Of a DNA stretch of 64,000 nt, positions 3,301 through 49,570 are shown piece after piece (position 1 is the stretch's first letter; each line of letters opens with the position of its first letter). Location: positions 3,570,001 through 3,634,000 of the forward strand of contig JAINUG010000073.1 in the NCBI GenBank assembly GCA_029706075.1. Reading direction: 5' to 3'. Source of the DNA: Aldrovandia affinis (taxonomy: Eukaryota > Chordata > Actinopteri > Notacanthiformes > Halosauridae). Under the pieces are notes generated by a model. The model was not told the origin of the DNA, did no database searches, and was given only the letters and a program-made list of their open reading frames with translations. A program made the position numbers and the translations under genes.

Positions 3301-4477
3301 ACTGGATTAGCATTCCGCCGCTCCTCACGTTCTCTCTCACTGCCATTTCACTGAGGGCTCCCAAAACCGCTCCACATCATCTCCTACCTCCTCTTATGCA
3401 TGTGACTGTCTTAACCCTAAACGTGTCGAATATGGAGGCTTCAATCACTTGCTGCCCAACCCTAGATATGCAATTATGTAAAATATACAGTTATATGATC
3501 CACCGTGATAGCACAACATCTATAATTCCTGTCTTTTAAAGCCTTAATTTAAAATAACTAAATGTGGGAAATATATGTAGGCCTATAAGAGGAAGTGGTG
3601 TTCCATACAGATAAGAGACAAACAGGAAGGAAGATTCACTTCAGAGAAGTGACGATCACACTGCTGCTGCAGCTGCCTGCACAATGACACTACAAATGTG
3701 AAAAAGACACAGCAGTCAGGTTATTATAGGAGAGGAATAATACACACAGCTGTAGGCAGTTAGTGGCAGGGATGTTAACGGTTTTTTATTTTTAAATGTC
3801 TGTCTGTGAGATTTTGATTCATTTATGAGTGTCTAATGGCTTCTATAATTAGGATTGTGATTGTCATTGTACTGAATCTGTGCTGTGGAAAGTGACTGAA
3901 AAGTTAATGGTACAAAAAAAAGTAAAAAGAAAATACGATTTGTAATTTCATAGAAGGGCATTGGATGTTTTTTGGAGACATTTCGATTTACATTTAGCAG
4001 ACGTTCTGGATAAGAGCTCTGGATAAGAGCGTCTGCTAAATGCCTAAATGTAATGTAATGTAAATCTAAATGTCTCCAAAAAACATGCAATGCCTTTGTC
4101 TGAAAATAAGGAGTTAAAAGCGTTGGAAGCGTGCGATGGCAGCCGGCCCACCTGCAGCAGAGTGGAGGCGCACAGAATCTCCTGCACGTTGTGCAGGTCG
4201 AGCTCCAGCTCGGCCGTGTAGATGAAGTCCAGCAGCTTGGTCATGGCGGTGTGGGAGACCCCGTGAACTGGGATCTCTGACAGCTGCATCTCCCTCAGGC
4301 CTCCAGCAAACATTCCCCTGGAGGAGCGAGGGAGGGAGGGGGAGGAGGAGGAGGAGGAGGAGGAGGAGGGGGACACGGCACAGCTCACACCCCACAGAGC
4401 AACTCACTTATTCTCATCTCATCAAGCCAGACATGAGCCGAGCCGGACACACGCACGCACACACACACACACATATA

Positions 4478-4520
<43 letters not shown>

Positions 4521-4987: not shown

Positions 4988-5900
4988 CGCTGCTCGCGTT
5001 CGCCGGCCTAGCCTGCTCACATCACACCTGTCCGAGCGCGTCGCACCTGGGCACACAGGTACACGGCAGGCGTTAGGGGCGAGAGGTTCGCTTTCAGCTT
5101 AATTATGGATCTATTTTTTTTTTTTTTTTTTTAGCTGTCATCATTACGCTATGCATCACTACGTTGCTAGTTTTAGTAGTAGCTATCTAGAGGCTAACTG
5201 GCGAGCTTCTCTTCAAAACATAGCGAGCGAGCTAGCTAGCTATACATTTGTTGTAAACAATAAGTCAATAATCGCGAGCTAGCTTTGTAGTTATCCATGG
5301 CTTAAAATGTACACCCCTCCTCGTCCAATACATCGGCCATCTCGAATGGCGCAGCGGTTTCGACTGTTCAAATGTTAACTTACGATTCTCCGCACATTAA
5401 TAGTTCGCCACCAACTTTAGCCTCGTAGCTAGCTGGCTAGCCAGATATACAGTGTGTGTCGTCAGCCACCTGACATCAAACAAATTACCCGTCAGCTGGC
5501 TCCCAAATCAAAGCATTCCCAAGATATTACCACATGATTTCAACGTACAGACTCATACACCTCCCCGTTGAAACGACGACAATAATGTTTTTCCTATTTA
5601 TGTATTTTAAATTTGCTTTATGAGCAGTTGTCACCCTGCCCTTCGCTTTCGATTGCGATATTCTCTCGCTTATCTATTCGGTGTTTACTTTCTGAGCACA
5701 GCGCCGCGCGACGCAGTTCCAGGTTTACGCCCATGCAATAAAACGTCACTTCCGGCTGTAAAACCACACTTCCGTTCCTACCTCGACCTCGTGTTTGCGC
5801 AGCAATAAAACAACATTTCCGCACTAAGTGTGCAAATCGTGTCGGTAAACAACGCGAGCGAGTCAGCCTCAGCCCAATTTTTTTACACACATCTATAATT
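4988..5900 (-). promoter_or_regulatory. klhl22: klhl22 5' leader and CpG-rich promoter region
   Basis: Upstream of the klhl22 ATG the DNA is CpG-rich. A possible acceptor on the minus strand (GTGTGCCCAG) near 5049 suggests the leader begins in a separate upstream exon. At 5740-5790 two ETS-like sites (GTCACTTCCGG, CACTTCCG) lie close together, typical of TATA-less promoters. A poly-T run lies at 5112-5133 and a GCTAGCTAGC cluster near 5230. The transcription start is not defined by the sequence. Confidence 0.4.
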
Positions 5901-28205: not shown

Positions 28206-28884
28206 ACACCCTACTTCTGTCACGACCTGGACTGGAAAGCAATGCAACATGTCTGTCTGCAACCAAGTTATCTTTAGGTGAAGATATCATTGAAAGGAAT
28301 CAAATAATAAATAACGCCTCCAAATGCGTGGTTTCATAAATTATGTTATAAATATAATACATTTATATATCATATATTATAAAATATATTATATATGATA
28401 AATTAATTAAGCATTTAATTGAATGGAATTGTATGATATTCTATGGAAATATCATCAGAATTTTGAGAGGGATTCAGAACAACGTTGTTTTCTGTTCACT
28501 GACACCATTAACACAGACTACAGTGAGGCAAGAACAGATCTTTCACAGATCTGGCCTGTCGTCTGACCAGAGTCTCCAAGTGGAATAACTGCACATTTGC
28601 TTGGTCATTTGCCCCCTTTTTAATACTTTGCAGTGAAGCCAAGAAATCCAGACAGCATTTTTTTCAGATCCAGCATCTCTCACATTGTAAGGCTAATCTC
28701 TCACCAAGTGCAGTAAAATACGGCACATTCTCTGATCCACCGTCAGGCTGTGAGTAAAAAGAGAGAATAAGAGTGAGAGGATCCTTTCATCTTTCTTAGT
28801 GCCCTCCTTCAATCAAAGATGATTTTTGCTCTCACGTGAGGCTGTTTTACCACAGGCACTCCAAGCCACCGTGAAACCACACAA

Positions 28885-29158
28885 ACCTGGCACATCCAGG
28901 GTGACCACACAATCCTGCCACATCCAGGGTGAGAGCACAAACCTGCCACATCCAGGGTGAGAGCACAAACCTGCCACATCCAGGGTGACCACACAATCCT
29001 GCCACATCCAGGGTGACCACACAATCCTGCCACATCCAGGGTGAGAGCACAAACCTGGCACATCCAGGGTGAGAGCACAAACCTGCCACAACCAGGGTGA
29101 GAGCACAAATCTGCCACATCCAGGGTCACCCCACAATCCTGCCACATGGAGGGTGAGA
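28885..29158. repeat. 28-bp minisatellite, about 9 copies
   Basis: Alternating variants of CCTGCCACATCCAGGGTG followed by AGAGCACAAA or ACCACACAAT. Open frames on the minus strand are repeat artefacts. Confidence 0.9.
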
Positions 29159-32100
29159 GCGTTGAAGGCCCCTCTCATTCAGATGGCCAGTATTTGAACT
29201 GTCCAGCCACATACCTTGAGAGTGGATTTTTCTGAACAGCGATCAAATCCCCTTTTTCTTTCTCTTCTTTATTTGTCCGATCTGAATCGTTTATTTCAGT
29301 TTTAGAGACTTAGATACCTGATCTCCGGTACGTTTTGTTTGAGCTCATTGTGAGAAATGTGTGCAGTGACTACAGAGAGGCAGCAGGGATCTGTCCGTGG
29401 TTGTCTGTAAAGATATGGACCATAAATATAACATTTATGCTTGACTAGAGTGAAATTGCTTCGCCTATATGGCCAAGAAGTCTCCTGACAAATGCTGATA
29501 GAAAGTGCATGAAGAATGACTACAAAGAAGACTACAAATTGACATAAGGACACAGATATTATGAATAAATACATGCTCAATGGTAGGCTTATCACGCGAG
29601 GTCATTTTCTCTTTCTCCTTACAAGCTGTGAGGCCAAGTATTGCTGTTAAGGTTCATTTCGATTTAAAAAAAACATGAGACACTTCAAGACTGAAATGCA
29701 GAGGGCAATCATATTCTTTATTTGTGAGACTTTTTTGAAATATAGTTCTGGAAATCATGCCATTGGAGCTGTTAGTGCTGGCAGAGCCTCTGGGGTATGA
29801 ATATGGATGGCAGTTGGCCTTGAGTAAGGATCTAATTAAATTAACATGAAAGGAGGGAAAGAAAACATTAAATGTATTCTTTTGACAGCGTGCTCATTGA
29901 AAAGGCACATGAATAGTGTGGCGTTTTGATTCTGCCCTCTCTGCCTGCACAAGGAGAGCTCTTGTTGATGAGCAATGCTTTTCACAAGACAATAGTCAAG
30001 AAAATCAAACCGTGAAGTTTGAGATGTGACCACGCATAATAATGTAAAAGGAACAGGAATGTTGAAATGATAATTACCTATTGTCCTTCCTCGTATGATA
30101 TTTGTAACATGGCTGCCACTCTTGTCCCTTGACATAACATAAGCTCTTGTAAACTTAAAAAGTGAGTATCTCAACGCATTCCCGTAGATATTCCAAGCCT
30201 TTACATTAGAGGTGCTCGCCTGACTTTGAAAAAAAAAAAGTGAGAATTTTGCAGTGATCATTCCAAAGAAACTCATCAATCTTACGTTTCAGTGCAATTT
30301 TAACACCACACAGCTTCAGAAAACCCTCTCTTTGGTGTCATTGAAATCCTCCTCGGCTTGATGGCCAAACAAACGTATATATTTACCCCATTGCAACTAT
30401 CTCTTGGGAGGTGCTTTGCTTTGCCGTCAAAAGCAGAAGGGTTTCTTGGCCCAGATGAAAAAGCCCCTGGCCGTTTGAGATTCCTTTAGCACCACCCGCC
30501 TCTTTTCCTCCCCTCTAATTTCACACTGGATTGTGAGGAGAGGAGCAGAAAAGGAAAGAAAATGACTGCAATTCCATTCCTACACCCCCTGCCAGTAAAT
30601 TGGGCCTTTATTAAATTTAGGCCCCATCTATCAATACTGAGACCAGTATCGAAATTGCTCTGTTGGCCACAAATCGTCGGCAATAGATCGGGTCTTATTT
30701 GAAACAAGGCCGTCATTAATCTGGCTCACTTGTTTTCCTGAGGTGAAGGGGAAGCAGGCCGTATTAAGACTTGTATTTGTTCCCTCGGTGATGGATGTGG
30801 CCTCCATGAACCTCTGATTACCAGATTACCAGGAGTAAAGCAGGAATCCATTAGACAGACAATCATTTACTGCTGCTGGGGAGGCCGCGAATTCTCTCTT
30901 TTTCATCAGATACCAGGAGGGTGGCGAGGAAGAAGCAGAGTGATGTTCCAAACGCTTTCTTAAAAAGAGCGCTCACCAAGGAGACACCACCTCCATCGGA
31001 GATTACGCTTTTTTTTTCTCCCAACAATTTTTTTGAGATATATTTTTGTATTCTTTAATTTTGCCATCAGATGTCAGCTATTACAAAAATAGCCTGAAAT
31101 GCTGATGTTTTCTTAAAAACCCCCAGGAAATATTCAATCATATTTGTTGAATTGATCTTTACTGATATTAATAGATTTCAATTCAATACTTTCACCCCAC
31201 GGGGCAAACCTAATTTACAAACTATCCACAGAGAGACAATAATAGGGCTAGAATCGGCCCTCAGCCATGTGCAGGCCGATGACAATGGAATTATGATGAA
31301 GTGGAAAAGTCATTTCAAAATGTTGTCCTTGCTCTATTCTCAAAGTGGAGGGACTTATCAGTCCAGTGGGTTTGAGAGGAATCTCCTCTCCGGTGAGCTG
31401 AATATTGAAAAGAGGAGAATCTGCTGGCAAATTATCGCCAGCGAGGAAAGGTCAGAGGAAGTTAAACGTATCCAGGGAAGGCCGTGACCCCTCCGCGCCG
31501 ATAAGAAAAACAGTTCATGAAAGAACGAGTGTGGAGGGAAAGATCAGCTTGCTCCATTCTCACCTCCTCCGCTGGCGGTCAAAATCATTGTGGACCAGTT
31601 TTGTCCAACGCTTCCTCAGCGCCCAGTTATGTTTGGTTCTGTAAGTGCGAAGCTGCACTGTAATCTAAAAGACCAGCGCCAGATTTATTGTACTTATAGT
31701 TCAGGAATGTTTGTTTGTTTGTTCATTTTGTTGGTGTGTAAAGTGTTGAAGAAGGTCAATGAACTTCTCATGTCTTTATATTACACAAGACTCCCACTGA
31801 GGATAATAAATTATGACATTTCTCTTTAAAAAAACTCAAAATAGTCACTATTTGACCAGAGGAGAGTCTAATTAATATTTTCTGAATAACACATAAGGCC
31901 ATACCTTTTACCGGATTAAATCCCTTGCCTGGCAGGGATGCATTAAGATAGAAAAAAAAGGAAAATAGTTCTAAAATATTTGAAAAGTATTTTGTTGAGT
32001 TCCACTGTGGAGCCAGGATAATTGGAGACTAGTTGCCCTATCTTGTTCTCAGAGATTTTATCCTGATTGTGTGTGAATGTGTCTGCACCTGCTTGACCAT

Positions 32101-32397
32101 GTGCAGGTGTGGTCCTGAACCTTTGCTCTTGACCAAAAGCTATTTTATGTTACCATTGCATCATATTTCAAAATTAATTTGCATGAAAAGTTACTGTTAT
32201 GGCACATTCCCTGGGCCAGTGTGCACGTGCCTCTAGTTTAGGTTTATTATTATTATTAAGATTAATTATTATGAGAACCCACATATCCACAGTAGTGGTC
32301 CCATATGGCTGTCTTGGTTGGGTTTGTGTAATGTGTGTGTGAAATGCCCGTTTCATGTGTAATTGCGCTACGGAGCCCTGACCCCGGAACCAGTAAC

Positions 32398-32556
32398 CAG
32401 GGGCGTTGCTAGAGTCTGGTGGGGCCCTAGGCAAAAAAAAAAAAAAAAAAAAAAGACATTCCTCTGGGGTAAAGCTTGTCAGCCCTCGGTGACCCCCTAA
32501 CAGCCTGGGCGCCCCAGGCAGTTGCCTGCCTTGCCTGTTCACAAACAACACCTCTG
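32398..32556 (+). mobile_element. hAT-type nonautonomous element, left copy
   Basis: Begins CAGGGGCGTTGCTAG and ends CAACACCTCTG, giving inverted termini of about 11 bases with the hAT CAGRG pattern. About 159 bp with an internal poly-A run. The bases at its two sides do not match each other: CCAGTAAC on the left, CTCTCGGC on the right. Confidence 0.85.
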
Positions 32557-32620
32557 CTCTCGGCTGAAGGAACGAGACCCCGACCTCTTTGATCAGCTTG
32601 GCCAGGGCTCGGATCCCCAG
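32557..32620 (+). pseudogene. 3' half of a CARD exon (caspase paralogue)
   Basis: CTCTCGGCTGAAGGAACGAG through CGGATCCCCAG aligns with the last about 63 bases of casp1 exon 2 (CTCTCGGCTGAGGAAACGAG to GGGATCCAG), with a small internal shift. Weak homology persists into the intron (AAACGCCCTT). The 5' half of the same exon type is at 45040-45229. Confidence 0.85.
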
Positions 32621-32764
32621 CCTGCTCAACCAGTAAAAATAAGAATTCCAATGTAAAACGCCCTTGTTTAAAGTTTAGCACTGAATACTGAATACTATTA
32701 AAAACCCTCTCTTATCCTACATGTAAAATATATTTATTTGATTTAATATAATAATTACTACACC

Positions 32765-33131
32765 GGGCGGCACGGTGGTGCAGTGGATAGCACTGTCGCC
32801 TCACAGCAAGAAGGTCTCGGGTTCGAATCCAGGCCGGGGGCCTTTCTGTGCGGAGTTTGCATGTTCTCCCCGTGTCCGCGTGGGTTTCCTCCGGGTACTC
32901 CGGTTTCCTCCCACAGTCCAAAGACATGCACGTTAGGCTAATTGGAGAGTCTAAATTGCCCGTAGGTATGAGTGTGTGAGTGAATGGTGTGTGTACCCTG
33001 TGATGGATTGGCGACCTGTCCAGGGTGTATTCCTGCCTCTCGCCCGGAACGCATGCTGGGATAGGCTCCAGCACCCCCCCCGCGACCCTGACCAGGAATA
33101 AGCGGCTTAGACAATGGATGGATGGATGGAA
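32765..33131 (+). mobile_element. tRNA-derived SINE, family D, with ATGGATGG tail
   Basis: Complete element. A box GGTGGTGCAGTGGATAGCAC, B box GGGTTCGAATCC, a body with TTTGCATGTTCTCCCCGTGT and CCTCCCACAGTCCAAAGACA, and the RTE-like end AAGCGGCTTAGACAATGG with an ATGG tail. This family is widespread in teleosts. Confidence 0.88.
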
Positions 33132-34244
33132 TTACTACACCTACTATCGATACCAATTCATAATTTGTGTAGTAATTATGACATTAATAATGATTAATAT
33201 AATTAGTACACCAATTATCAATTAAATCACCAAATTTGTTGATAGCACCTAGGAATAGCACAGCACCTAGCACCCAGGAACTGTACTTCCCACTAGGATG
33301 GCTTTCAGCTAAACTGTTCTTGACTACGGTTAACACTTTGTTGTACGTCGCTCTGGATAAGAGTGTCTGCCAAGTGCCTGTAATGTAATGTAATGATAGG
33401 CAGAGCAAATTGGTAGATCAACCTTCATCTAAATATACAACTCACAATTCAATTAAAATTAACAGTTGGTTTATTAAGTTATACAACAGTTATACAAAGA
33501 CAAAATATTCAATGTCCAATCTACAGATGTAGGTTCACCTACCTTAACAAATACTAATTCCTAGACATAAAATTGACATGTAAAAATCACAAAAGAGATT
33601 CAATGGAAGAAAGTAATACAAAACCCAGTTTCTTTCCGCATGGAAACACACGCAGCCGAGGTGTGAACTGGGAGCAGATCTCCCAAGAAAAGCAGGAACG
33701 TTGTAGGACTACCCATGAGTAGCTATCTCCTCTAAAACTGCCAAAACAGATGTCTGTCAAAGCTACATACCTTACTGCCCTGGTTTCGATCATAAACTAA
33801 TAAACCTGTAAATAATTGGCACCATATTTGTTTATGACAATTTAACTCTGTTTGCCTGCGCAGGATCACCAAAGTGCACCTCCCCAACAGGTAAACTGGA
33901 ATAACTATCATTCACCAAAACCAACAAGGAAACATGAACATCCCCATAATTAATGCCACTAAAGATCCTCACTGCAGTTATGTGGAGAGTTCCTGGAGTA
34001 TCATACTGTACAAACATATCAGCCTTAAAAACATTGAACATACCTGTAGCAGGACTGTAAATCAGGGCATATTGCTGTGCCTGCTGATGTAAACACATTT
34101 TTATTCCCTCTCTTCATCTGCAAATCATGCTGGAGGACACGGGAGAGTGCCAACTTCAAATCATTTTGTCAGTGTGCCCACTCTGTGTGACCCAACACCC
34201 CCAACGATGGCAAAGGGCATCAGTGACAATTCATAATAATAATA
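33132..34244. other. AT-rich segment with one SINE tail
   Basis: A shared SINE tail lies at 33340-33395 (CGTCGCTCTGGATAAGAGTG). The rest is AT-rich unique DNA. An 88-codon minus-strand open frame at 33832-34098 resembles nothing I recognise and has no splice context. Confidence 0.5.
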
Positions 34245-34397
34245 ATATACACCATTTAGCAGACGCTTTTATCCAAAGCGACTTACAGTAGTGAATGCAA
34301 ACATTTTCAGTATATGTGGCCCCAGTGGGGATTGAACCCACAATCTAAGCATTGCCAATGCGGTGCTCTACCCACTGAGCCACAGAGAGCCACGATT
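34245..34397 (-). mobile_element. tRNA-derived SINE, family C, complete reverse copy
   Basis: Reads tail (TTTAGCAGACGCTTTTATCC), linker, B box complement (GGGATTGAACCCAC) and A box complement (GCTCTACCCACTGAGCCAC). It has a single head unit, showing the unexpanded form of the elements at 21.3 and 49.0 kb. Confidence 0.85.
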
Positions 34398-34784
34398 GAT
34401 TGTGGTTATGCACATTGCTCAGATGTATAGTTTCAGGGAACATCAGCAGATTAGAGTAGAGTAGGAACCTAGATAAGGAGATAATGTAGGAAATAGTGAT
34501 ATACACATTTATTGTAATCCATTTTGCTTCAACACTTAATCTTGTTAATCACTCAATAGCCAACATTGTTTTTGACGTGAAACCAATATTTGAAAGTGGT
34601 AAATTGTGTAATTAATTTTAATTATTCACCTTATTACATATGTAATGTTATGGTAATCGATACTTGTTAAACGCATCTGACCTTCTTCACTTGTGGGTGG
34701 TCAGCTATATTTTCGCAAACATTGTTGCACACCGTTTGATCATTGTTGCCAAAACCTTTGCCGAAAGGAGCAGGTCTCTTGAGA

Positions 34785-34880
34785 AACCCCGGGGGCAGCG
34801 ATTGGCTATCCGCCCCAGGGTGCGGGTGAGACGGCAGGAGCAAGCCGAGAAGCCGAGAAGCCGAGAAGAGCGAAGAGTCT
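34785..34880 (+). mobile_element. Family-A SINE fragment
   Basis: GGGGGCAGCGATTGGCTATC and CGCCCCAGGGTGCGGG match the middle of the family-A element, followed by a short AAGCCGAG triplication. Confidence 0.6.
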
Positions 34881-35284
34881 CTCTAGAGAGTAGGTGGGCT
34901 CCACCCCAAATTTAGTGTACCGGGGATTTCGTCCAATAAGCGTTGACTAAAATCAGAGCCAATCAAATGCGTGAATTTCCTTTAAAAAAATCTATACAGT
35001 ATCACTTTTCACTATAGGCCGTAAGGTGAACGCCGAAAATGTGTCTAGAAAGCAAATCTCGTTCCCATCAAACCCGACTACATACTTTTTACTTCATAAA
35101 AAAGATCTATTGGTGTTGAGCGAGAAAAAAAAGTTCTCTCAAAAAAAGTACACCTCAACAAAACCATCATTTTTATGAACAGTTAGAGCAGTCTGTGTCA
35201 AAGCAAGACAAAAAAGTGTCCAAGTCTATAGATCAGAAACACCCCACCCCCACCCCACATTTCCCAGGTAACACGGCAAATCTC

Positions 35285-35790
35285 TTAGTCATCACTATCA
35301 CTATCAGGAGAGCTATGATCACATGTAGCCCTTTCCTCAGTTTCTTTGAAAACATTTGCACAATTTTGGCACCGACATAAATCTGTACAAGACAGTCTTG
35401 CAGACATACAGGAACATCTTCCTGTCTCGCATTTGCCTTGCCTGCAACTGCAGTGGACTACCTGCAACACACTTTCAGGGGCAGGATTTCTAGTCATCCA
35501 GGTCACTGTTAAGTCCCCATCCTCAAGGTGCCATCCATTGCCAGCAGGTGATGGAGCACACATCTTAGCTTTAAAGGATGATCTCATTATTGCTGCTTGG
35601 TAGTTTGCCCTTTTGCAGTGTTGGTACAGGGCATCACTTGTGGGGGGAATGGATAGTTCTGGCAAGGCTGATGAACGCCTTGTATCGTGCCTCATTCACA
35701 TTTTCAGCAGCTGACTGGTCATACAGGTGGCACACGTATTTGCAAAGTATTGCAAAGGTAGACTGGTCCAGGTTAAAGCACCTTTGTTGC
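35285..35790 (-). pseudogene. Decayed Cys-rich (CXC-like) ORF of probable transposon origin
   Basis: A 136-codon minus-strand frame ends in CSCRQGKCETGRCSCMSARL, LSCTDLCRCQNCAN and an acidic SDSDD tail. It is preceded by DALYQHCKRANYQAAI. This order (an ANYQ.A.. block, then a tesmin/CXC-like Cys cluster) occurs in uncharacterised animal proteins often tied to mobile elements. Upstream, the related segment LCKYVCHLYDQSAAENVNEA continues in a different frame, so a one-base shift near 35660 breaks the gene. No splice sites or start were found. It lies inside the hAT-bounded caspase unit. The family assignment is tentative. Confidence 0.55.
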
Positions 35791-35999
35791 TCTGTAGCCC
35801 TCTCTCTATTCCCTCTGTAATGTAGTCAAATTGTGCATTGTTATCGTTGAATGTCCATTACTTGGTCAAATCTCGGTCGAGGTAGACCTCTGCCTACGGT
35901 TCTATATGTACTGTAGCTGTCAATGGGCTCACAGATGCTGCAAGAATAAAGTTGCAAGCAGAACGATCAGCATATGATTTTCGTTTTTTATTCCCATTC

Positions 36000-36055
36000 A
36001 TTACATTACATTACAGGCATTTAGCAGATGATTTTATCCAAAGCGACTTACAATA
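36000..36055 (-). mobile_element. SINE 3' tail fragment
   Basis: ACAGGCATTTAGCAGATGAT then TTTATCCAAAGCGACTTAC, the shared tail in reverse, about 750 bases upstream of the caspase start. Confidence 0.65.
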
Positions 36056-36299
36056 AGTGCATTTAACGTAGGTAAGCAAGAGAACTGCTAGTCACCGGAA
36101 ATCATAAGTACATCTCCCTACTAAACAAGCATCCAAGAGCATAACCAGGGCTGAGGTAAGTGCAAGAACAAATCTATCTTATCTGAAGTTACATTGCATA
36201 ATCAATTAATCACATAATTACATGTTGCGCAGGCGGTGAGCATTTGGGCAAAGATATCTCACATTCCGGGTCAAAAATATCGCATTTCGCATCGACAGA

Positions 36300-36798
36300 T
36301 TTCAATGAAATTTCACCAGAAACAAGAAAATGTTAAATTAACGTCCTGGATACCTTTTATTTAGTCCTGAACTTGCGATATATCATTTTGAAAGCACTAA
36401 ACACACTTTCGGAAGACTTCTGGCAGGATTTCCTTCGTCTTCGCTACTGCTTGTTAACGACGTGGAGGCACACATCTTGGAAGCTAGTTCCAAAAAGCGG
36501 CCACCTTATTGGTCTAGCGGGATCACGTGACGGCCGCTTCACCACTCGTCAACAAACTATTGATTACGCCCAGGACGTACGTAAGTATGGAGTCGGGTTT
36601 GATGGGAACGAGATGAAACGAAAAACGGGTTCACCTTGGCCTACTAGCAGGAAAGTTACGTTAACAAAACTTGTTGAGTTTTTGTCACACCTCATATACT
36701 TCGTTATTGCTTGAATTGCGAATCAGCAAAATAAACAACCTTCACGCCGGGATCTTCTAATCCTCCAGTTTTACGATCTCTGAATTGTGTTCTGTGCA
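36300..36798 (+). promoter_or_regulatory. casp1-like upstream region
   Basis: Unique sequence preceding the caspase ATG. It contains an E-box in GATCACGTGACGG near 36520 and ends with a short leader before the ATG at 36799. No TATA element or defined start site is evident. Confidence 0.3.
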
Positions 36799-39700
36799 AT
36801 GGCAGGTAAGAACAATTTTACATAAATTATTTGCCAGCTTGAAACAATAGCCTAAATTCAAGCTGCAAAACTTCCTGGAAACATCGCCAGAATAGACGAT
36901 TAAAAAGTTGCAGATCTATTATGTAGCATACATATCACACCTTATACTGCGACTCACTGGTATGTGGTATTCTATAACTCAGTTTTAGTTTAACTATTCA
37001 AAACGTATGATAAATACATTCTATTACAATTTGCGTTAAGTGCTTTCAGTTTCATTTTATGTACACGATGTCCTAGTCGCCATTGTGGTTGGTTATTAGA
37101 TGCATGTTAGAAAAACCAACAAACCCGATTTTCATTTTAACCAATTTAATCTTGTTAAAAAGACTGGTTATCACAATGGGAATTTATTTAATATCGTCAT
37201 TACTTCAACTATTACAAAATAGTTGAGAGTATCTGCAGTGTTTCAGCCAAAGTGTCGCAATCGTAAATATAATTCTAGATACATTTTCTGCAAAACAGTA
37301 TTCAAGGGAAATATTAGAAATGCTTACTTAATTAAAATTAAGCAGAACATATATTTTGTCCTTTCTCATTCTCCTAATTTGTTTTTGAACAGATACGCAG
37401 CTAACCACCGTGAGGGCCCAGTTTGTGAACAGAGTAACGAAGCCTGTCATTAACCAATTGCTGGACAACCTTTTAGAGGACAGGGTGCTGAACGATGAGG
37501 AACAGGAAGCGGTGATTCAGGAAAACGGAATGAGAGCGGATCAGGCGCGCAGCCTTATAGACATGGTACGGAGGAAAGGACAGAGAGCCAGTGAGAAGCT
37601 AATCTCTCGGCTGAGGAAACGAGACCGTGTCCTCTTTAATCAGCTCGGCCTGATTTGGGATCCAGGTGAGTGTATTTGAAAGACTCATTAAACGCCCTTC
37701 AGCAATGGCTGAAACCCCCAAGGACCTCTGAAGATGTATTATTATTAATATTATTATTATTGGAAGGATGGACTGGTGATTATTATTATTTTTTGTAAAC
37801 AGACTGCCTTATTTGGGGTTGAATTACAGTGTATAAATAAACTACAGTCACAATAGTGAGTAAAATCTGGATTTGCCAGTTGGTATGCTGCTCAAAGCTG
37901 TGGTTTGATATGCTGCTCAAAGCTGTGGTTTGATATGCTGCTCAAAGCTGTAGTTTGATATCCAGCTCAAAGCTTTAGTTTGATATCCAGCTCAAAGCTG
38001 TGGTTTGATATCCAACTCAAAGCTGTGGTTTGATATGCAGCTCAAAGCTGTGGTTTGATATCCAGCTCAAAGCTGTGGTTTGATATCCAACTCAAAACTG
38101 CTGTCAACTGGACTTTGTGTTGTGACTTTGCAGAACCATCAGAGGACCTTATCTTCTGCACTGAACAAGAGAAGAGAAAAGTGCTAGAGAGGAAACGCAG
38201 TTCGGTATGACTTCAGCTCGAATTGTATTGCAGCAGAGGAAGCATTACGTGGGTCACTGCTGAAGATTCCTGTTCAGCCTTCCAGGCCACCTTTAAAATC
38301 CAGTACAAATATTTTCTGCACATTGTACATTTTTTGTGTGTACCGTACTTAAAAAAGACTGTAGTTTGTTGCTAACTGGTCAGAAAGAGAGCTGTTGTGC
38401 TTTTCATATTTACATTTCATCAAGATTGTGTGCAATGAACATATGATGATGATTATGTGTGATCTCCGTTTCTGTATTTTTTGTTCTTCCTTAACTTAAA
38501 AGTGCTTCTGAATCCCTGTTTCCGCCAGATTTACATTCCAAATGAGAAGCCTGACCGGAAACGCTTGGCTCTGCTCATCAACAACATCAATTTTGTCTGC
38601 GAATCCATGCTGAGGCGTGGCGCTGATAAGGACGAGGAGCGCATGGAGAAACTCCTGAGGGACCTGGACTATGATGTGGTGAAATACAGGAACTTGTCGG
38701 GCCAGGTACAAACAGAGAGGATGGGTCCAACGTTAAAAAACCCTAAAAAAACAGAGGGGAAGAACGGGTACATGGGCTGCACATCAGACATCCGTTTTTT
38801 ACGAACAGCAACATCCACTTCAGACCAGATCTGGGTCAAATAATTATTTCAAATACTGTAACCCTTTCGACACCAGTAGAATTCCTGCAGATTACTGATC
38901 ATTTTAATTTTTGTTTTCACCAGTTTTCAGAACAAAATTAGCTTTCCGTACGATTGCAGCTTTTGAAGAGTTAAAGAATTTAAAGAAAGCCTGCTGCTTA
39001 AGAAAGCCTTGAGACTTTCTGTAGATGAAAATGTAGAGATAAGATTCCCTGTGTGCATTTTGAACAATGTTTTGTTCATTTAGAGTGAGAAGAGCTTCAT
39101 CACCAAGCATCAGCATACAATTTAGAGACAATACACAACATATTTACAAACTGTACATGTACTGACAATAAAACACTGGTCACTTTAGAGCGTTTTACCG
39201 CTATCATGTGTCATTAGTAACATATGGTGTAGCATTTTCAATAAGGAAAATTGTTGATGGCAGATATGAACAGCTGAATCTTTCAGTTGAATACTTTGGC
39301 AAGATGGACCCGTTACAAAGAGACCTTTTGTATTGCATTAGGGAGTCGTGATGGGGGTCGGATTGGTTAATAAAGATCATATGGGTTTATGCTTTTATCG
39401 TTGACATGTAAACGGTGTCCAGTGAATCCTGACTCATCACCTACCATATATGTGTGTTTGCAGGACATAGATAAAGAGGTGGCAGCGTTCTCTAAGCGTG
39501 AGGAGCACTCGTGTTCGGACAGCACATTTGTGGTGATCATGTCCCATGGGAAGCGGGATGCCATATGTGGGATCCACCACGATACTTCCAATAATGTGAC
39601 TGACCTCTTCAAAATCGACAACATCTTCAAGCACCTCAACACTGAGAACTGCAGGAATCTGTTAAATAAACCCAAAATCATCATCATCCAGGCCTGCAGA

Positions 39701-42634
39701 GGAGGTGAGCTTATCTGACCAGGCCAGGTGCTTTACTGTGCAATCAATCTCTTTGTGTGTAAATAGATTTCTTCATATGCAATAAAAAAACTCAAAAACA
39801 TTTAATCATATTTGCCACCTTTGATATGGCTGGATAGTACAGTATTACTGTGTCGCCTTCCTAGAATCATTAGACTACTACGATCTAGCGAACCACTGGG
39901 CCAAGAGCCGTCTGTGCGATCAACTAGTGTGTGCAAATGTGTGTTGTCTAGAGGAGGGTGGGTCAACGCTGGTGTATGACAGTGAGTCTGATATTGTCCC
40001 GGACGGCCTGGAGGATGACTCAGGTGTCAGGCGTGAGCACAGGGAGAAGGACTTCATCATTTTCATGGCCTGCACTCCAGGTAAGGGATGACCACCTCCC
40101 CTAATGGAAATAAGATGTATTGAAATGTAATGAAATAAATATGTAATCAAGATCGGAATAGATATTGCAACACTTCACAATATATGGCCAAATACAAATA
40201 GCTACTCTTTCAGATATTGCAATATATATGTATTTGTAAGAATATGTTGCTGTGAAATATATTTATCATTATAGTCGTTATAGTCCCACTTTAAAGTGTC
40301 AAGTGCCACTTTAAATGGGATGGGTGTCGCATTGTGCATTATAATGTTCTGTGTAGCAGGCTTGCTCCTCCAGTGTGAATGGGGGTAAAGCAGACTACGA
40401 ATTGGCAAACCAGATGCTGGTCGGATGTATATGATGAGAGTTTGAGCCCCTGGACCACGTAAACCAAGAGTATGCAACCCATGCTGCACTGGGCCTACTT
40501 ACACTGCCAGACCTGGTTCAAATACATATTTGAAGGGGCCCCTAGGTGGAGCAATGGTAAAGGCACTCGCTCGGAGTGCAGGTTGCCCACTGCGGTCGGG
40601 TTTCGAGCCCCGGCTGTGCCAGCCTGGCGTTGGCCAGGAGTCCCGTTCAGGGCGGCGATTGGCTGTCCACCATGTGGGAGGTGGCCAGCATGAGCTCACC
40701 AGAAGTGGCTCTGTATGAACCGGAGTTACAGTTGACAGCTTGGCGAGTTCTGTCGCTGTGGAGGGGGTTCATCGCCTTTGTCACTGCCGAGCTCATAGTA
40801 GAAGGGGGGCTACTTCACACGAAAAGAGGGTACAATTGGCTACTAAATTGGGTGGAAAAATTGGGAAAATCTGAAAAATAAAAAATATATATTTGAAATA
40901 CTTTAACTCTCGCTGGTTAAAAGAAATATATCCCTGAGAATTTTAAAAAATGAAACATGTTACTAACCACAATGTACAATCATAAGAAAGAAGAGTTTTG
41001 TTCTGAAAACGTTTTGAAAACAATACTGGTCTACTACATTAACAAAACGACACTACCTGTACTAGACTGGCCTGCTAGCTAGCCCAAACACATTCCACCC
41101 CGTCCAGAGTTCAGTGCCATTCAACACCTGCTGCTGATACCACAGTTGCGTTTGAGATGTGTGGTTTTAATTCCTCGTCATGTAGCACCTGCTAAAATAT
41201 AATAATTATCGAATGAGGAACTACATTCATTATTCAAGCAGTGTTTCAGGCAGCATGTCTGAATTTGTTACTGTCTTGACTCACCAAAATGGATTGGCTT
41301 TTGTCCTTTTAAACACACAAGTGTTTATTATCATGGAAAATAAATATATATATATTAACAGGTAAAATGGATTTCTGTCAAAGGGTCGAAATGAACCACA
41401 TTTGCTTTTCCCCATTCAGACACTCTGTCCTACAGAGACCCTAAAAAAGGAGCTCTATTCATCCAGCGGATTGTGGAGACGTTCAACACATATGCCCATG
41501 AGGATCACATCCAGAAACTGTTCATGAAGGTGAGTATTTATGCCACATACCGCTGAGGGAGTATTAAATGATCATTCTGTTTTCTCAATTATTTATCTTA
41601 TTTTCAGTGAGTTCCCCTTACTCTGGGGATCCACCAGAAGCAATTTTCTTGCTAGACGTCACTTTGATCGCTAGCCGGTGGCCGCTCATTTGGGCGTTCC
41701 CACTCAAGCAGCTTTTGGGAAGAGCAGGTTACATTGTGCATGTACAGCTATCAAGTTTGTAGTAGAGTGAACCGAGCCGAGCCCATAGGACATAAAGCAA
41801 GTAAACTACTATCAAGACATTGATAGTAAATGGTTTGACTTGAACAACACGTTTGCACTCACATCACACAAACTAGCTGACTTTACCTTTACCATGACCT
41901 TTCTAGCTAGCTACCAGCAATTAACATACTTTACATTTAATTGCACGGAATGAATCAAAGTCACCAGGAATCCCCACTATTTTTGATATTTTGCACCATG
42001 CGTCATTCTTTTTATTGACGTCCCTGTAGGCTATACAAACAGGGACGCATCGTAAAGTTTGGGAAACCCAGACACTGCAACAATTAGCCTCTCCTCCATT
42101 TTGGTATGGAACAAATTTACAGTAGGAACCAAAAACATGCACTTTAGTTTACAGTAAGGAGAAATAAGGACATCTCTCCAATTGATTATCGCTTCACCGC
42201 ATCACCAATAAAGTTAATGAATATGAAATAACTTCATAATGAAATGCATGAAGTTAAATCTGTTCAACTCTCTTTTGCACTGAGCATGCTGACTTTGCAC
42301 CACTAACGGTCGCTTCACCCCACATCGCCTACCATTGCCAGCTCCCATTGAAAATGAATGACTTCCGGCCGATTTCATCGCTTCTGGTGGATCCCTAGGG
42401 TTAGGTGTCCGCCCCCTTGTTTTCATGGTTCATTTATTGAGTTAAAAATACATTGTGAAGATATGCAAGAAATAAGCTATCGGAAATCACAGTTTTCTGC
42501 CAGTTTAATGTGGCACCTTTGCCTGTCTATTTTTCCAATAGGTTTTGCGCCGATTTGATAAATTCCCCAGACAAATGCCATCCATGGATAGAGTAACTCT
42601 GAGCAAGAAGTTCTACCTCTTCCCTGGGCTCTGA
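36799..42634 (+). CDS. casp1: Caspase-1-like inflammatory caspase with N-terminal CARD, 8 coding exons
   Basis: A cysteine protease of the inflammasome type. Exons: 36799-36805, 37393-37665, 38134-38204, 38529-38705, 39464-39704, 39952-40080, 41420-41529, 42542-42634. All are GT-AG and in phase, giving 366 residues. CARD spans about residues 5-92 (FVNRVTKPVINQLLDNLLED, RSLIDMVRRKGQRASEKL). A short basic linker is followed by the p20 region (IYIPNEKPDRKRLALLINNI). The catalytic His is in MSHGKRDAICG (about 204) and the catalytic Cys in IIIQACRG (about 254). An Asp-rich interdomain linker follows (YDSESDIVPDGLEDD), then p10 with the substrate-pocket SYRDPKKG (Arg about 305) and the family C-terminus FYLFPGL. 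The start encodes only MA plus one base in a 7-base exon, as in CARD caspases. CARD rather than PYD argues against the zebrafish caspa/caspb type. Caspase-4/5-like naming is possible. Confidence 0.94.
37885..38105. repeat. 25-bp minisatellite in casp1 intron 2
   Basis: About nine copies of GCTCAAAGCTGTGGTTTGAT plus five variable bases, ending about 30 bases before the exon-3 acceptor. Confidence 0.9.
40533..40895 (+). mobile_element. tRNA-derived SINE, family A
   Basis: Head CTAGGTGGAGCAATGGTAAA and GGGTTTCGAGCCCC, body GGCGGCGATTGGCTGTCC, A-rich end AATTGGCTACTAAATTGGGT. It is in casp1 intron 6. Confidence 0.78.
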
Positions 42635-45039
42635 GCTGCTGGCTGTGCCCTGGCTTCATTACTATTAAGTAATGAGATGCCATTCTGAATGCTGTATTGC
42701 TTACACATTTTTTATTTTTTTATTTAACCTTTATACATGTGTCGTATGTGCCCCCTACATTTCACATGTGGGCTGTGGGGGGGAAGGGGGTTGTAGGAAG
42801 TGGGAGCTGATGAATTGAACCCAGGGCAATGCATCTTCTCTGACAATATACAATATGACCAATCAGTAAACAAGACTCCTAATTGGGGGAGGGGGGTGGG
42901 GGGGTGGGTGTGTGATTATTATAAAAAAACGTAATGTGATATGAATGGAAAGTGTCCAATTAAACACATTTTCTTGTCCAAAATGTTTGCATTTATATTC
43001 ATTGTAATCTGTGATCTGCTTGCCTCACCTAAATTGCCATACAACTGTGCAGCCAAAGTGGCGCTGAAAAAGTATTCATGCTTTTATCTCATCGAGTCAA
43101 CCATTGTAACTTTTTACTTTTATGTGTCCAAAGTTACAGGCACCTGAATACAAAAGAAACATGCTTGATCCATATGAGCCTAGTCATATGAGCCTAGTCT
43201 GCTGCTGGGAGGTGCATAACACGGCAGCGTTATCCATTATTCACCTCAATTGCACAGCCGGCCGAGGAACATTATGAAAGGTGCTGAAAAAAGGACAACA
43301 GAACTCAGATATCGGCAGTGAGGGTGCGGGAGGCTTGCGTCCTGCTCTGATTTATATGCTTATAGTGGCCTGTGTCCCTGCGGTGTGGCCAAAACTCCCA
43401 GTGTGCTCGCTAACTCCGCTAACTCCGCTCGCTCTTGCGCTTTCATGCTGTGAAAAGAAACAGGAGCTCTTCTACGAAAAGAATCAACTCAGCTTGTGGG
43501 GGAGGGGGAGGGGGTTGCCTGTAAACTTCAAATAAACATGGAAGAATCACCTCAGAGGAAGACCGCCGCACAGCGGGGAAGAGAGAGGGCCTGTAAAGCG
43601 TCTCAGGAGAAGAAGTGCAGATCTAGGATCAGTTTAGCATTTTAGCTCATAATGGATAAGGTTAGGATATGGACAGGAGAAAACTGATCCTAGATCAGCA
43701 CTCCTATTCTGAGACACTTTATGAATACAGGCCCCTGGGCTGCTGCACCTGGAAGGACCGCAGTCCTGTGTGGTCCATACAGGAGGGAGGACGGCATGAC
43801 AACGCCCTGCAGCCCCAGTGCATCGGAAACGGGATGATGTAATCAATGACTGCATGGCTGGAACTCCAGTGTGCAGTAAGGTGCATGGCAGGTGCATGCG
43901 AGGTTGTGTGGCTAAGGTCGTATGTGAAGTGTTACATTTACATGACATTTAGGCATTACATGGGGCCTTCAGCAGCCTCAAGCGCTAGGCCAGGAGACAC
44001 AGACAAGGTCATCAGGGTTACATGGCTTGCCCCCATTTCCTACTGTTAAAAACCCCCAAAAATAAAAATTAAATTAAATTTAAAAAAGGGGAATGGGAGA
44101 TGGTTCGCACGCAAGTCTGCTCAGGTCACCCCCTGTGTCCCTCACAGACACAGTTGAGATAACAACTGTGTTTTGGCACGTTCATAAGCAATAACTGTGC
44201 AAAGTAGCTGATCAGTATCCTACTATTAAATCCCCAAAACTGTTAAATGAGAAGTTAAAGATTTTGACAAAAGAAAGATCGTGCATATGTGAAATTAAGG
44301 GCTTGACCTTCATTTGAAATTCCTAACAATGTTTTCCTGCACACAGCTTTGACACCTGTTACAGTAGGCTACTGCTGCTATGTTGGTCTACTGTACTTCA
44401 AGAAACATGTAGGCTACTCAATTCTCTCAGACAGCCTAGAGTATTAGCTCAGCTAATTCTAGCTTGTTGTCTGTCTGTCCCCTTCAAGTCGGCCATAGTA
44501 GTTGCCGGTTGCCGAGCGACAACTACTCTTGATGGTGTTGTGGCTTTGTTTGAGTTTTTTTGATAGAACATTGTATGTGGGTGTCAAAGTTTGCTAGCAT
44601 GATCAAAATATTACCTTTTGGTAGCTCACCATTCAATTAGGTAAATTATGATTTTTAATAAAAACGTAACACACCTATTAAAGCCCTGTCCGGACGAGAT
44701 TAGTTTCACTAGGGGAGGTCAGGTAATGCCATTTTCACCAGAGTAATTCAGACATTTTACTACTGTGCGGAACGACCATGTCAGTGAAGTCCTCTGAAAA
44801 TTCTATTCCTGCCTGGATCGACATGTCAGTGTTTGATGCAAATTACAACTATATTGGGCGGTAGCCTACATTTGAATTTTTATAATAGGCTACTTCCCAT
44901 TTTTATGGTTGTGAATTGATTGCTCAAACTGGGGTTGAAAATACGGTTACCCCGACACTGATTTGATGCATAAAGTCTAATGTTGAATCCAATGTTGTGT
45001 CTGCCTTGTTTTCGGCATGTCTTAAAACATGGGGGGCAG
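42635..45039. other. casp1 3' flank, no further gene
   Basis: AT-rich unique DNA after the caspase stop, with G-rich runs at 42775-42905. It carries the MITE at 43586. A degenerate SINE-like stretch (ACATTTAGGCATTACATGGG) lies near 43940. No second catalytic caspase exon is visible before the CARD half at 45040. Confidence 0.5.
43586..43737. mobile_element. Foldback MITE
   Basis: GGGCCTGTAAAGCGTCTCAG and AGATCTAGGATCAGTTT at the left are mirrored by AAACTGATCCTAGATCAGC and CTTTATGAATACAGGCCC at the right: inverted arms of about 50 bases around a small loop. This is a common fish palindromic element. Confidence 0.8.
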
Positions 45040-45229
45040 CAGTTTGTGAAGAGAGTAACGAAGCCTGTCATTAAGCAATTGCTGGACAACCTTTTAGAGG
45101 ACGGGGTGCTGAACGATGGGGAACAGGAAGCGGTTCAGGTAAACGGAATGAGAGCGGATCAGGCGCGCAGCCTTATAGACATGGTACGGAGGAAAGGACA
45201 GAGAGCCAGTGAGAAGCTAATCTCTCGGC
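45040..45229 (+). pseudogene. 5' half of a CARD exon (caspase paralogue)
   Basis: About 190 bases closely match casp1 exon 2 (FVKRVTKPVIKQLLDNLLED, then NGMRADQARSLIDMVRRKGQ), with one in-frame 3-base loss and a few substitutions. The copy begins part-way into the exon (CAGTTTGTGAA) and stops dead at the hAT-type element at 45230. The reading frame is still open into that element. The missing 3' half is the fragment at 32557-32620. Confidence 0.92.
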
Positions 45230-45379
45230 CAGGGGCGTTGCTAGAGTCTGGTGGGGCCCTAGGCAAAAAAATTAAAAATAAAACAAATAAATAAATGGAC
45301 ATTGCTGTGGGGTAAAGCTTGTCAGCCCCGGGGGCCCCAGGCAGTTGCCTGCCTTGCCTGTTCACAAACAACGCCTCTG
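45230..45379 (+). mobile_element. hAT-type nonautonomous element, right copy
   Basis: CAGGGGCGTTGCTAGAGTCT to ACAAACAACGCCTCTG, about 150 bp, the same family and orientation as the copy at 32398. It is flanked by CTCTCGGC on the left and CCAGTAAC on the right, the reverse assignment to the left copy. Confidence 0.88.
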
Positions 45380-45387
45380 CCAGTAAC

Positions 45388-45676
45388 CGGGGGTGACGCA
45401 CTGAGCGCGCGGACTACAGGGTTCTCGTGGCGGCGCGAGAGTCAAGCGGGAGACGAACACGGCGAGAGACAAACTTTGAAGCGCACGAAAGCTGATCCAC
45501 GCGCACACGAATTAACGGACAAACCGCAATTTCGTTCGGGTTTCCTATGAGAGAGGGGAAGACCGAAATCTTTACGGGACTTTAAAAAAATAACAAAACT
45601 GTAACAACGCTGCTGAGGTTGGACTGACCGTACAGGAGGACGCCGAGCGGAGCTGCGCACCTTTCTGCCGCTTCAG
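45388..45676 (+). promoter_or_regulatory. CpG-rich promoter and untranslated first exon of an unidentified gene
   Basis: A dense CpG stretch (ACGCACTGAGCGCGCGGACT, GTGGCGGCGCGAGAG) ends at a strong donor, GCCGCTTCAG followed by GTAGGCC at 45677. The only ATG (45547) opens 12 codons and then a stop, so the exon looks untranslated. No coding exon of this gene is found downstream in the window. It begins immediately after the caspase unit, so that unit appears to have landed in its proximal promoter. Confidence 0.45.
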
Positions 45677-46344
45677 GTAGGCCTGCCATTTCATTTAATT
45701 TCATTTAATTTCGCATCGAACCAAGATGGCCATCATTACAGTGTAGGTTCACCGCGATGTAACTCCAGGTGTGGGAGGCTAATGCAGAGCGCTTGTTGTT
45801 GGCCATAGATATTAACGAGCAGTACTGTATTCGGTGAACCTCGGCTTTCATTGACACCATTTACTAATAGTTCCGTTGTTGCGCCGCAGAGTTACATTAC
45901 TGTAATGTTACATTACTTTACACAAACCAGGTTTGGGTTTGATTAGAAAACTCTGCATGCCATGGACTAAAAGGGCTCAATACAAAGGCCTGAAATCGGC
46001 GTATAGATTTTGAAAATAAAAGCAACAGATACTGTAGCTAATAGCAGCTGAGAGTGAATGCCTCGGCAGATGAAATAGACTGTAGGTGGCCAGATGGCTG
46101 GTGTGCCACGCCAGTGGGCACTGAAGGGATGTGTTATAGTTCTGTACATGCAGAATGTTGGATGGCTGTTGGCTGAGCCAGCTTGACCTTATTGGGCCCA
46201 TGTACATGCTGTACGGAGTAGCCCCAAACTACAGACTGCAAACTACTGTAATACATGAAGTATATAATCATCACTGTTGTGACTCTCGCTATTGCTGTGT
46301 CACCTGCACCTTCCCAGAAAAGCACTGCAGCTCAGGTCACGCTA

Positions 46345-47095: not shown

Positions 47096-47897
47096 TTGAA
47101 GTGGGGTACACAGAGACACAATACCCCATTTCTTGCTTGGAGGCAACCTTCAAGCTAGCCTCTCTTTGTAACAATGTGAAATTGCAAGCTCTTATACTAC
47201 TGAATGACATTACAATGGTCATACAATATTATAAAAATCAATGAATGCACTTGCTTTGGATTAAATATGTAGGATCAAAGCTTTGAATTGTTAGACTTTT
47301 AAATGTGATTTACCTTTGTGTTTGCAGTTTGAAATGGTGTTTATTGTTTGTGATTTATTGTCTTAATAACCGTTCCCTTTGTTTTGAGCTGTGCATTATT
47401 AGTCTGTTTAGCTTTTTGTGAACCTGCAGCTACTCTACGTTGGACCAGGTTTCTCTTCCCAAATAGATGGTTTGATCTGTGTGGGACAGCCTAATTAAAC
47501 ACAGTTTAAATAATGCATTCGGTCTCTGTAATGGCTGCAGTAATTATTGGGCCACTGTGATGTGCGCCCAAGTGCCTCCCAGACATTTGGAAACGCTGTT
47601 TGCTGTGCTTTTATAAATATGCTTCTCACTCCCAGGGCTGAGGCCCTGTCCTGTTAAACGGACGGTGCTTGTTGCTGCAGGTATGCACAGAGCCATGACA
47701 AATGGGGAGCCTTCTGTTGCTCTGGAATCTGCTCCAAGCTAGTCTCGATTTGTATTACAATTGAGGATATATTTCTCTTTAAACTTTTCAACACGTAGGC
47801 AGCGCATTATTTTAGGAGTGTCTTGCAGTTGTTCCTTATCTCTCTGGGGTGTTGCATCATACAGTGCAACATTTCAAATGATGTTGAAAACCATTCG

Positions 47898-48218
47898 TAG
47901 TGCCACATAATGGTGTTCAGAAGCATTCGTAGTGCCACATAACGGTGTTCAGAAGCATTCGTAGTGCCACATAACGGTGTTCAGAAGCATTCGTAGTGCC
48001 ACATAACGGTGTTCAGAAGCATTCGTAGTGCCACATAACGGTGTTCAGAAGCATTCGTAGTGCCACATAACGGTGTTCAGAAGCATTCGTAGTGCCACAT
48101 AACGGTGTTCAGAAGCATTCGTAGTGCCACATAACGGTGTTCAGAAGCATTCGTAGTGCCACATAACGGTGTTCAGAAGCATTCGTAGTGCCACATAACG
48201 GTGTTCAGAAGCATTCAT
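47898..48218. repeat. 32-bp minisatellite, 10 copies
   Basis: Almost identical units of GTAGTGCCACATAACGGTGT plus TCAGAAGCATTC; only the first copy differs (ATAATGG). No spacers are present. The uniformity suggests recent expansion. Confidence 0.95.
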
Positions 48219-48657
48219 AAACATGTATCTATAAATTCCCACGGACTCCTTCGTGAGAGGCCCTTCAGGGAAACATTTCAATGTTTGTGGCGCATAATTA
48301 AGCACTTGTTACCAACTCCCTCGCCTCATTTTGAGTTTTACTACCCAAACATGTCCCTGCTGGTGTCTCATTCATTCATAAATGGTCACGTAGGAAACGG
48401 TGTCCATTATTTATGAGAGGTGATTTGTTGCTCGTAGGAGAATGAATGTGTAAATGTGTTTGTGCTGCTTAAGTACAGTTTGAGAGGGGTTGATCTTTTA
48501 CTAGATGTAAGAAATGCTACATGATTGTGTGAAATGAGGGAGCCTTCAGTCATTAATAATGGAATTTATTATAATAATAATAATAATGGGACATGCCCTC
48601 CATACATGTACATTTCAGTTGATTTGAGTAAAAGTGCTTTTTTTAGACATTTTACTT

Positions 48658-48718: not shown

Positions 48719-48956
48719 ACATGGTAAGATCAGTCATTGTTCACACAAAATCAGTGCAGTAATACAGCGATAGACATCATAGTTGGCAGCTGCACACCAT
48801 ACCTGTAACATAGGGAAGGAAAAGGTTAGTCAATTTTACGCAGAGCGGAGGGGTCTGGCTGGGGTGTAGGGTTTGATGAGTGTCTGGAGGTAGGAGGGAA
48901 CAGTTCCTCTAGCCGCCTGATAAGCCAGCACCAGTGATTTGGATTTGATGCTTGTG

Positions 48957-49570
48957 GTTCTGTGTGGCTCAGTAGGTAGAGCGTGGTTCTGTGTGGCTCA
49001 GTAGGTAGAGTGTGGTTCTGTGTGGCTCAGTAGGTAGAGCGTGGTTCTGTGTGGCTCAGTAGGTAGAGCGTGGTTCTGTGTGGCTCAGGTACAGGTCAGT
49101 AGGAGCGTGGTTCTGTGTGGCTCAGTAGGTAGAGCGTGGTTCTGTGTGGCTCAGTAGGTAGAGCGTGGTTCTGTGTGGCTCAGTAGGTAGAGCGTGATTC
49201 TGTGTGGCTCAGTAGGTAGAGCGTGGTTCTGTGTGGCTCAGTAGGTAGAGCGTGGTTCTATGTAGCTCAGTAGGTAGAGCGTGGTTCTGTGTGGCTCAGT
49301 AGGTAGAGCGTGGTTCTGTGTGTCTCAGTAGGTAGAGTGTGGTTCTGTGTGTCTCAGTAGGTAGAGCGTGGTTCTGTGTGGCTCAGTAGGTAGAGCGTGG
49401 TTCTGTGTGGCTCAGTAGGTAGAGCATGGTTCTGTGTGGCTCAGTAGGTAGAGCATGGCGCTGACAACGCTTAGGTTGTGGGTTCATTTCCCACTGGGAA
49501 CACATATACTGAAAGATGTATGCATTCACTACTGTAAGTCACTTTGGATAAAAGCGTCTGCTAAATGGTT
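48957..49570 (+). mobile_element. tRNA-derived SINE, family C, with head expanded into a 29-bp array
   Basis: About 17 units containing TGTGGCTCAGTAGGTAGAGC precede a single body (GCTTAGGTTGTGGGTTCATT, CACTACTGTAAGTCACTTTG, GGATAAAAGCGTCTGCTAAA). The structure is the same as at 21.25 kb, in a different locus. Confidence 0.88.

Follow-up and report, generated by a model that had tools for sequence, protein, structure and literature searches.

How did a complete caspase-1-like gene come to lie between two copies of a miniature transposon that lack target duplications of their own? The locus belongs to a 64,000-nucleotide stretch of the Aldrovandia affinis genome (the window; contig JAINUG010000073.1, positions 3,570,001 to 3,634,000, here C2278). 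A preliminary description of the window reported two direct 150–160-bp copies of an element, which we call E, on either side of a caspase segment. Both copies, E1 and E2, are present at 159 and 150 bp. They bracket a stretch of 12.7 kb that we call the block, and E1, block and E2 together measure 12,982 bp. The block contains gene 1, annotated as AAFF_G00390330.

Two hAT-like elements with crosswise target duplications

The elements and three of the duplication copies lie as follows.

32390–32397, unstranded: left copy of the outer target duplication t1, CCAGTAAC
32398–32556, plus strand: E1, a 159-bp non-autonomous hAT-like element, intact at both ends
32557–32564: left copy of the inner target duplication t2, CTCTCGGC, formed by bases of a CARD exon
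45230–45379, plus strand: E2, a 150-bp copy of the E family with a 20-bp internal deletion
45380–45387, unstranded: right copy of t1, CCAGTAAC

E1 and E2 point in the same direction and end in short, imperfect terminal inverted repeats of 11 bp (9/11 and 10/11) that open with CAGGG/CAGAG – a type of end tied to hAT elements. Over a shared length of ~150 bp they differ at 5 of 117 positions outside an A-rich tract.

Neither copy is flanked by a duplication of its own, the two flanks of each differing at six of eight bases. Instead, the flanks pair crosswise: the outer flanks share CCAGTAAC and the inner flanks share CTCTCGGC, each at 8/8, base for base as first described. On both strands of the window CCAGTAAC occurs only twice (32390–32397 and 45380–45387). 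The inner sequence occurs at 32557–32564 and 45222–45229 and also at 7835 and 37604, the last being the equivalent place of an intact CARD exon. Two random 8-mers of the window agree with a probability of 5.9e-5, and both crosswise pairs would agree with a probability of ~3.5e-9, a figure uncorrected for how the case was picked. On these values a chance match of the flanks was rejected.

The E family ordinarily makes an 8-bp duplication. A genome search with E1 gave 94 candidates, the best 40 of which were scored and yielded 40 matches besides E1; E2 is absent from them, so the set is incomplete. Ends were read for the first 20 of these copies, and the second 20 enter only into an alignment of the 3' part. 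All 11 other full-length copies with canonical ends carry an 8-bp duplication of their own (10 at 8/8 and L026 at 7/8). This control leaves out L025, which has a non-canonical 3' end and no visible duplication, and L028–L035, which match in the 3' part only. E had no matches (0) among viral contigs.

The inner flanks are two halves of one CARD exon

The inner ends of the block adjoin coding sequence. Alpha and beta below are CARD copies on another contig, C224.

32557–32633, plus strand: 3' half of a CARD exon; the match to alpha continues to 32655
45040–45229, plus strand: 5' half of a CARD exon, lacking its first ~30 bases and ending in the right t2 copy (45222–45229)

Joining the sequence up to 45229 to the sequence from 32565, over one CTCTCGGC, restores a single open CARD (Pfam CARD, E 1.3e-20). 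The inner flanks of E1 and E2 are the two halves of one exon, that is, one donor insertion site. Since they join in this way, E formerly lay inside a CARD exon and CTCTCGGC was its ordinary duplication. Over the first 50 bases past the duplication the 3' half is equally near to alpha (45/50) and beta (46/50). We assigned it to alpha because its exon end, CAACCAGTAA, is alpha-like, whereas beta reads CAACCAGGTGA.

The block is a permuted copy of the C224 caspase cluster

A search with the intact CARD exon of gene 1 returned seven matches: two in the window, two on C224 (244931 and 250732), one on C2013 and two on C1013. We compared parts of these three arrays (17 stretches of 10 kb, with 5 kb each of L038 and L052 consisting of N). 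Over the block C224 is the nearest, with 399 mismatches in 9570 positions (4.2%) across colinear matches, and the block carries insertions and deletions of its own relative to C224. The colinear segments on C224 are the alpha CARD (244970–245253), 247.6–249.8 kb, 250.1–252.5 kb (which holds the beta CARD), 252.6–255.4 kb, 255.8–257.2 kb, 258.8–259.6 kb and 259.75–260.32 kb. The alpha–beta interval is repeated inside C224 (241.8–244.4 kb), so that two partners are possible there.

The order of the block is that of C224, permuted. Its left end falls within the alpha CARD exon; a complete caspase-1-like gene follows, and then a joint, J, at which the sequence leaps back by ~15 kb to the 5' half of the CARD (C224 244970).

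44435–45027, plus strand: left side of J, matching C224 259753–260323; the first 200–240 bases are a dispersed repeat
45028–45039: J lies somewhere within, passing from C224 ~260.32 kb to C224 244.97 kb, with no long homology

When 44435–45100 was used as a query, the part past the dispersed repeat matched the window and C224 only (among the best 40 of 375 candidates). The split CARD exon, the C224 copy and J, all of which the preliminary description had missed, supply the event with a donor.

Two further explanations were weighed. We consider it improbable that an assembler joined a collapsed tandem array to the contig through the 150-bp E repeat. By reasoning alone, a collapsed tandem unit would resemble a circle in an assembly graph, with E as the shared repeat; against this, the block differs from C224 at the 399 of 9570 colinear bases and by insertions and deletions of its own, the sequences of E1 and E2 are not identical, and the window is free of N and lies inside a 4.64-Mb contig. 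Less credible still is an ordinary segmental duplication, with the matches of the E copies and of their flanks put down to accident or to later gene conversion. The further caspase copies on C224, C1013 and C2013 indicate that duplication by other means has occurred, but such an event leaves four exact E-end junctions and two 8/8 matches (~3.5e-9) to coincidence, along with a break in a CARD exon at precisely the inner duplication.

The moved gene is a complete caspase-1-like gene

Gene 1 occupies the middle of the block.

36799–36805, plus strand: end of exon 1, ATGGCAG followed by a GTAAG donor; the same at C224 244064 and 249435
37389–37667, plus strand: intact CARD exon without E, bounds approximate
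38133–42634, plus strand: later exons, with approximate bounds 38133–38204 (linker), 38529–38705, 39464–39709 (SHG, QACRG), 39972–40082, 41440–41532 and 42542–42631 plus stop

The annotated protein has 366 amino acids. An open frame encodes a CARD, a p20 with the catalytic His and Cys motifs (SHG and QACRG) and a p10, as in a caspase-1-like protease, and of the solved structures Caspase-1 (9wz6) matches best by sequence (E 7.3e-64). Protein matches to the caspase exons place AAFF_G00390330 first and AAFF_G00036880, on C224, second, with another on C1013. Between gene 1 and beta (37389–42631 against C224 250741–256660, L039–L040) we obtained a dN of 0.068 and a dS of 0.067 (NG86, 987 exon bases, approximate bounds). 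With the frames open in both genes, near-equal values may reflect neutral or relaxed evolution or fast protein change. A frame at 38967–39044 was dropped as an exon candidate, being present in none of the three annotated proteins compared.

Two further arrangements were seen in the related arrays. At C224 244064–249435 (L038, L039) a CARD unit has its own exon 1, and between it and the following exon 1 no caspase exons were found; the unit either consists of a CARD alone or serves the beta gene as an alternative beginning. At C2013 59019–60972 (L043, L044) a caspase copy shows its CARD followed directly by sequence matching 41936–42271, and protease exons were not found for it within the 40 kb examined.

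A probable composite insertion through the outer element ends

We reasoned that the block, with its complete gene, was probably moved by a hAT transposase acting on the outer ends of E1 and E2, and we give this reading a probability of about 0.56. The presence of E at four exact end junctions, together with the 8/8 crosswise pairs, supports such a composite transposition, as do the lack of E in the five other CARD copies found and the segment order shared with C224. Directly visible in the DNA are the crosswise pairing of the duplications, the division of the CARD exon, the cluster that resembles a donor, joint J, the 8-bp habit of the family and the completeness of the gene.

The proposed history would begin with a short non-autonomous hAT element, E, inserting into the CARD exon of the upstream unit alpha of a caspase-1-like cluster and duplicating CTCTCGGC. 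Two copies of E in the same direction would then come to bracket a permuted stretch – the 3' half of the CARD, a complete beta-type gene, downstream DNA, J and the 5' half of the CARD. A transposase would treat the left end of E1 and the right end of E2 as one composite element, and its insertion at CCAGTAAC would create the outer duplication. In one sub-route, a tandem duplication with joint J would copy E and the block, after which E-block-E would jump as a macrotransposon. In the other, E ends on sister chromatids, or those of a double E, would transpose during replication, the flanks would be re-replicated and the broken ends would fuse at J, as described for composite insertions of maize Ac/Ds. 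The two would give the same product, and we consider them about evenly likely. We infer the transposase action, a target free of E beforehand and the sub-route from the features of the final product.

The preliminary description had proposed either a macrotransposon or a circle recombining with a resident element. Both routes survive, with the first kind favoured; to these the split CARD exon, the C224 copy and J add a third, a composite insertion of the Ac/Ds type. An internal joint between donor flanks is expected of an Ac/Ds-type insertion, and J is such a joint, though one from a tandem duplication or a circle would look identical. Every route that we considered requires E in the CARD exon and joint J. 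Macrotransposition, Ac/Ds-type insertion and circle predict the same final sequence, and they differ in whether E was already at the target and whether E1 and E2 are sisters. The most specific version – a hAT composite insertion in a vertebrate germ line, in which alternative transposition of miniature-element ends during replication re-copied 13 kb of the caspase cluster and, in a single event, placed a complete immune gene at a new site – we put forward as tentative and, taken by itself, rather doubtful.

A possible circle recombining with a resident element

It is possible, although we think it on the unlikely side, that the cluster block, with one E in its CARD exon flanked by the CTCTCGGC duplication, formed a circle closed at J, which recombined with an E already resident at the target within CCAGTAAC, so that E1 and E2 would be reciprocal recombinants of independent elements. 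This history predicts all of the junctions, the crosswise duplications and J included, and translocation through a circular intermediate has been reported for cattle KIT (PMC12235870). The circle requires E at two unrelated places, however, and the homology available to it is only the ~150 bp shared by E1 and E2, with their 5/117 mismatches. The block also contains a dispersed repeat that gave 375 first-look candidates against 94 for E (from queries of different lengths, the best 40 being scored in each). This commoner repeat was left unused, and an integration driven by homology alone need not have chosen E – a soft argument.

The ancestry of E1 and E2 bears on the same choice. The exact 18-base form GGGGTAAAGCTTGTCAGC occurs at two places in the searchable genome, E1 and E2, although an exact search would miss any copy altered elsewhere within this 18-base stretch. 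At the position of the shared base, 39 of 39 other aligned E copies have T. This exclusive base fits common descent of E1 and E2, as predicted if one E was copied with the block, and under the circle it would have to be a coincidence or a conversion patch.

Several observations weigh against transposition through the outer ends. A maximum-likelihood tree does not unite E1 and E2, which suits two independent elements that recombined, as the circle supposes. It places E1 weakly with L017, with which E1 shares two other bases; support for this split is 71.4/47 at full length and 74.5/83 on the 3' part. By a rough estimate the exclusive base of E1 and E2 would arise twice with a chance of 4–9%, or it could be a conversion patch. 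With the exclusive base on one side and the tree on the other, the evidence on sisterhood is split, and ancestry does not decide between the routes.

The donor side raises further difficulties. E is absent from the five other CARD copies among the seven CARD matches (the window's two included), so no donor CARD with E survives there; J is not present in C224, nor was the intermediate seen. C224 and C2278 are separate contigs, whereas an Ac/Ds-type route wants linkage, and no double E was seen here, while the donor in maize had two elements 822 bp apart. The halves of the CARD also disagree in their affinities. The 5' half is 96% like the CARD of gene 1 (45040–45229 compared with 37419–37611; last 96 bases: 95) and 91.7% like alpha, but the 3' half matches the gene 1 CARD at just 38 of 50 bases (32565–32614 compared with 37612–37661). 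This contrast points to later conversion or exchange in part of the block, or to an origin of that part in more than one copy. The exact copy of origin of the CARD halves is blurred by later exchange.

Two side observations concern the CARD site. The step in CARD identity coincides with the position of E, as if a conversion tract that formed once E was in place had halted there. The duplication of another E copy, L016, is CTCTCGAC (within AATCTCTCGACT) and differs from the CARD target by one base, perhaps reflecting a target preference. The L016 site was ruled out as a CARD homologue, the local match spanning just 12 bases with one mismatch.

Relation to known systems

In maize, reversed-ends transposition of Ac/fAc produced composite insertions of 14,287, 19,341 and 23,647 bp. 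They have 8-bp duplications on the outside and a joint within, formed in one case each with 3-bp microhomology, with none and by homologous recombination (PMC4270019). The locus described here resembles these insertions in its outer hAT pair, the 8-bp duplication around the whole, the copied donor flanks, the internal joint and a comparable size. Unlike them, it lies in a vertebrate, involves a 150-bp non-autonomous element and a complete gene, has donor and target on different contigs with the double-element donor not seen, and is an old event read from sequence.

In macrotransposition, known from maize with two linked Ds elements, two direct copies travel as a unit with the intervening DNA, through the outer ends. 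The present block differs in needing a prior tandem duplication to account for J and the split exon.

Old rearrangements have been recognized before by the mispaired 8-bp duplications of two hAT copies, in tandem duplications of maize B73 that were ascribed to reversed-ends transposition (PMC3744419). Those were local, with one flank matching and one unmatched, whereas here the block is dispersed and both pairs match crosswise. Serial translocation through circular intermediates was described for KIT in cattle colour-sidedness (PMC12235870), where a gene-bearing block was likewise copied elsewhere in permuted order; the present locus differs in that each of its four outer junctions coincides with an exact transposon end and a target duplication. 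Teratorn of medaka is a piggyBac-based composite element, and no vertebrate case of a gene-bearing composite hAT insertion is named in the titles and abstract openings of the papers listed by the searches.

Some of the background is more general. The account of circular-intermediate translocation at cattle KIT reportedly goes back to Durkin 2012, and we know of no transposon ends at its breakpoints. Miniature elements of ~150 bp are generally regarded as moving nothing but themselves. In this genome two of them appear to have transported an entire multi-exon immune gene to another site. Both target duplications, the earlier and the later, persist in the product, which makes its history legible at the level of single bases. 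Were an empty site to confirm this, the composite hAT transposition known in detail from maize would be a source of gene copies in vertebrates as well. The locus further suggests a simple way of screening genomes, namely for pairs of elements of one family in which the 8-bp flanks match crosswise.

Surroundings in the window

The host sequence on either side of the insertion differs in composition.

45388–45700, unstranded: right host flank, CpG-rich, with an observed/expected ratio of 1.37 against 0.31 in the left flank (31900–32390)

The insertion thus borders a CpG-rich stretch, perhaps a promoter. Within the block, a minus-strand frame at 35285–35692 encodes a CXC domain (TCR, Pfam 1.7e-5). 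It lies in ~35015–36642, a stretch missing from the C224 block, and is probably part of another mobile element. Minisatellites with units of 28, 32 and 29 bp occupy 28820–29183, 47813–48292 and 48892–49537, respectively, and minus-strand frames at 1231–5098 resemble, by eye, a BTB/kelch protein.

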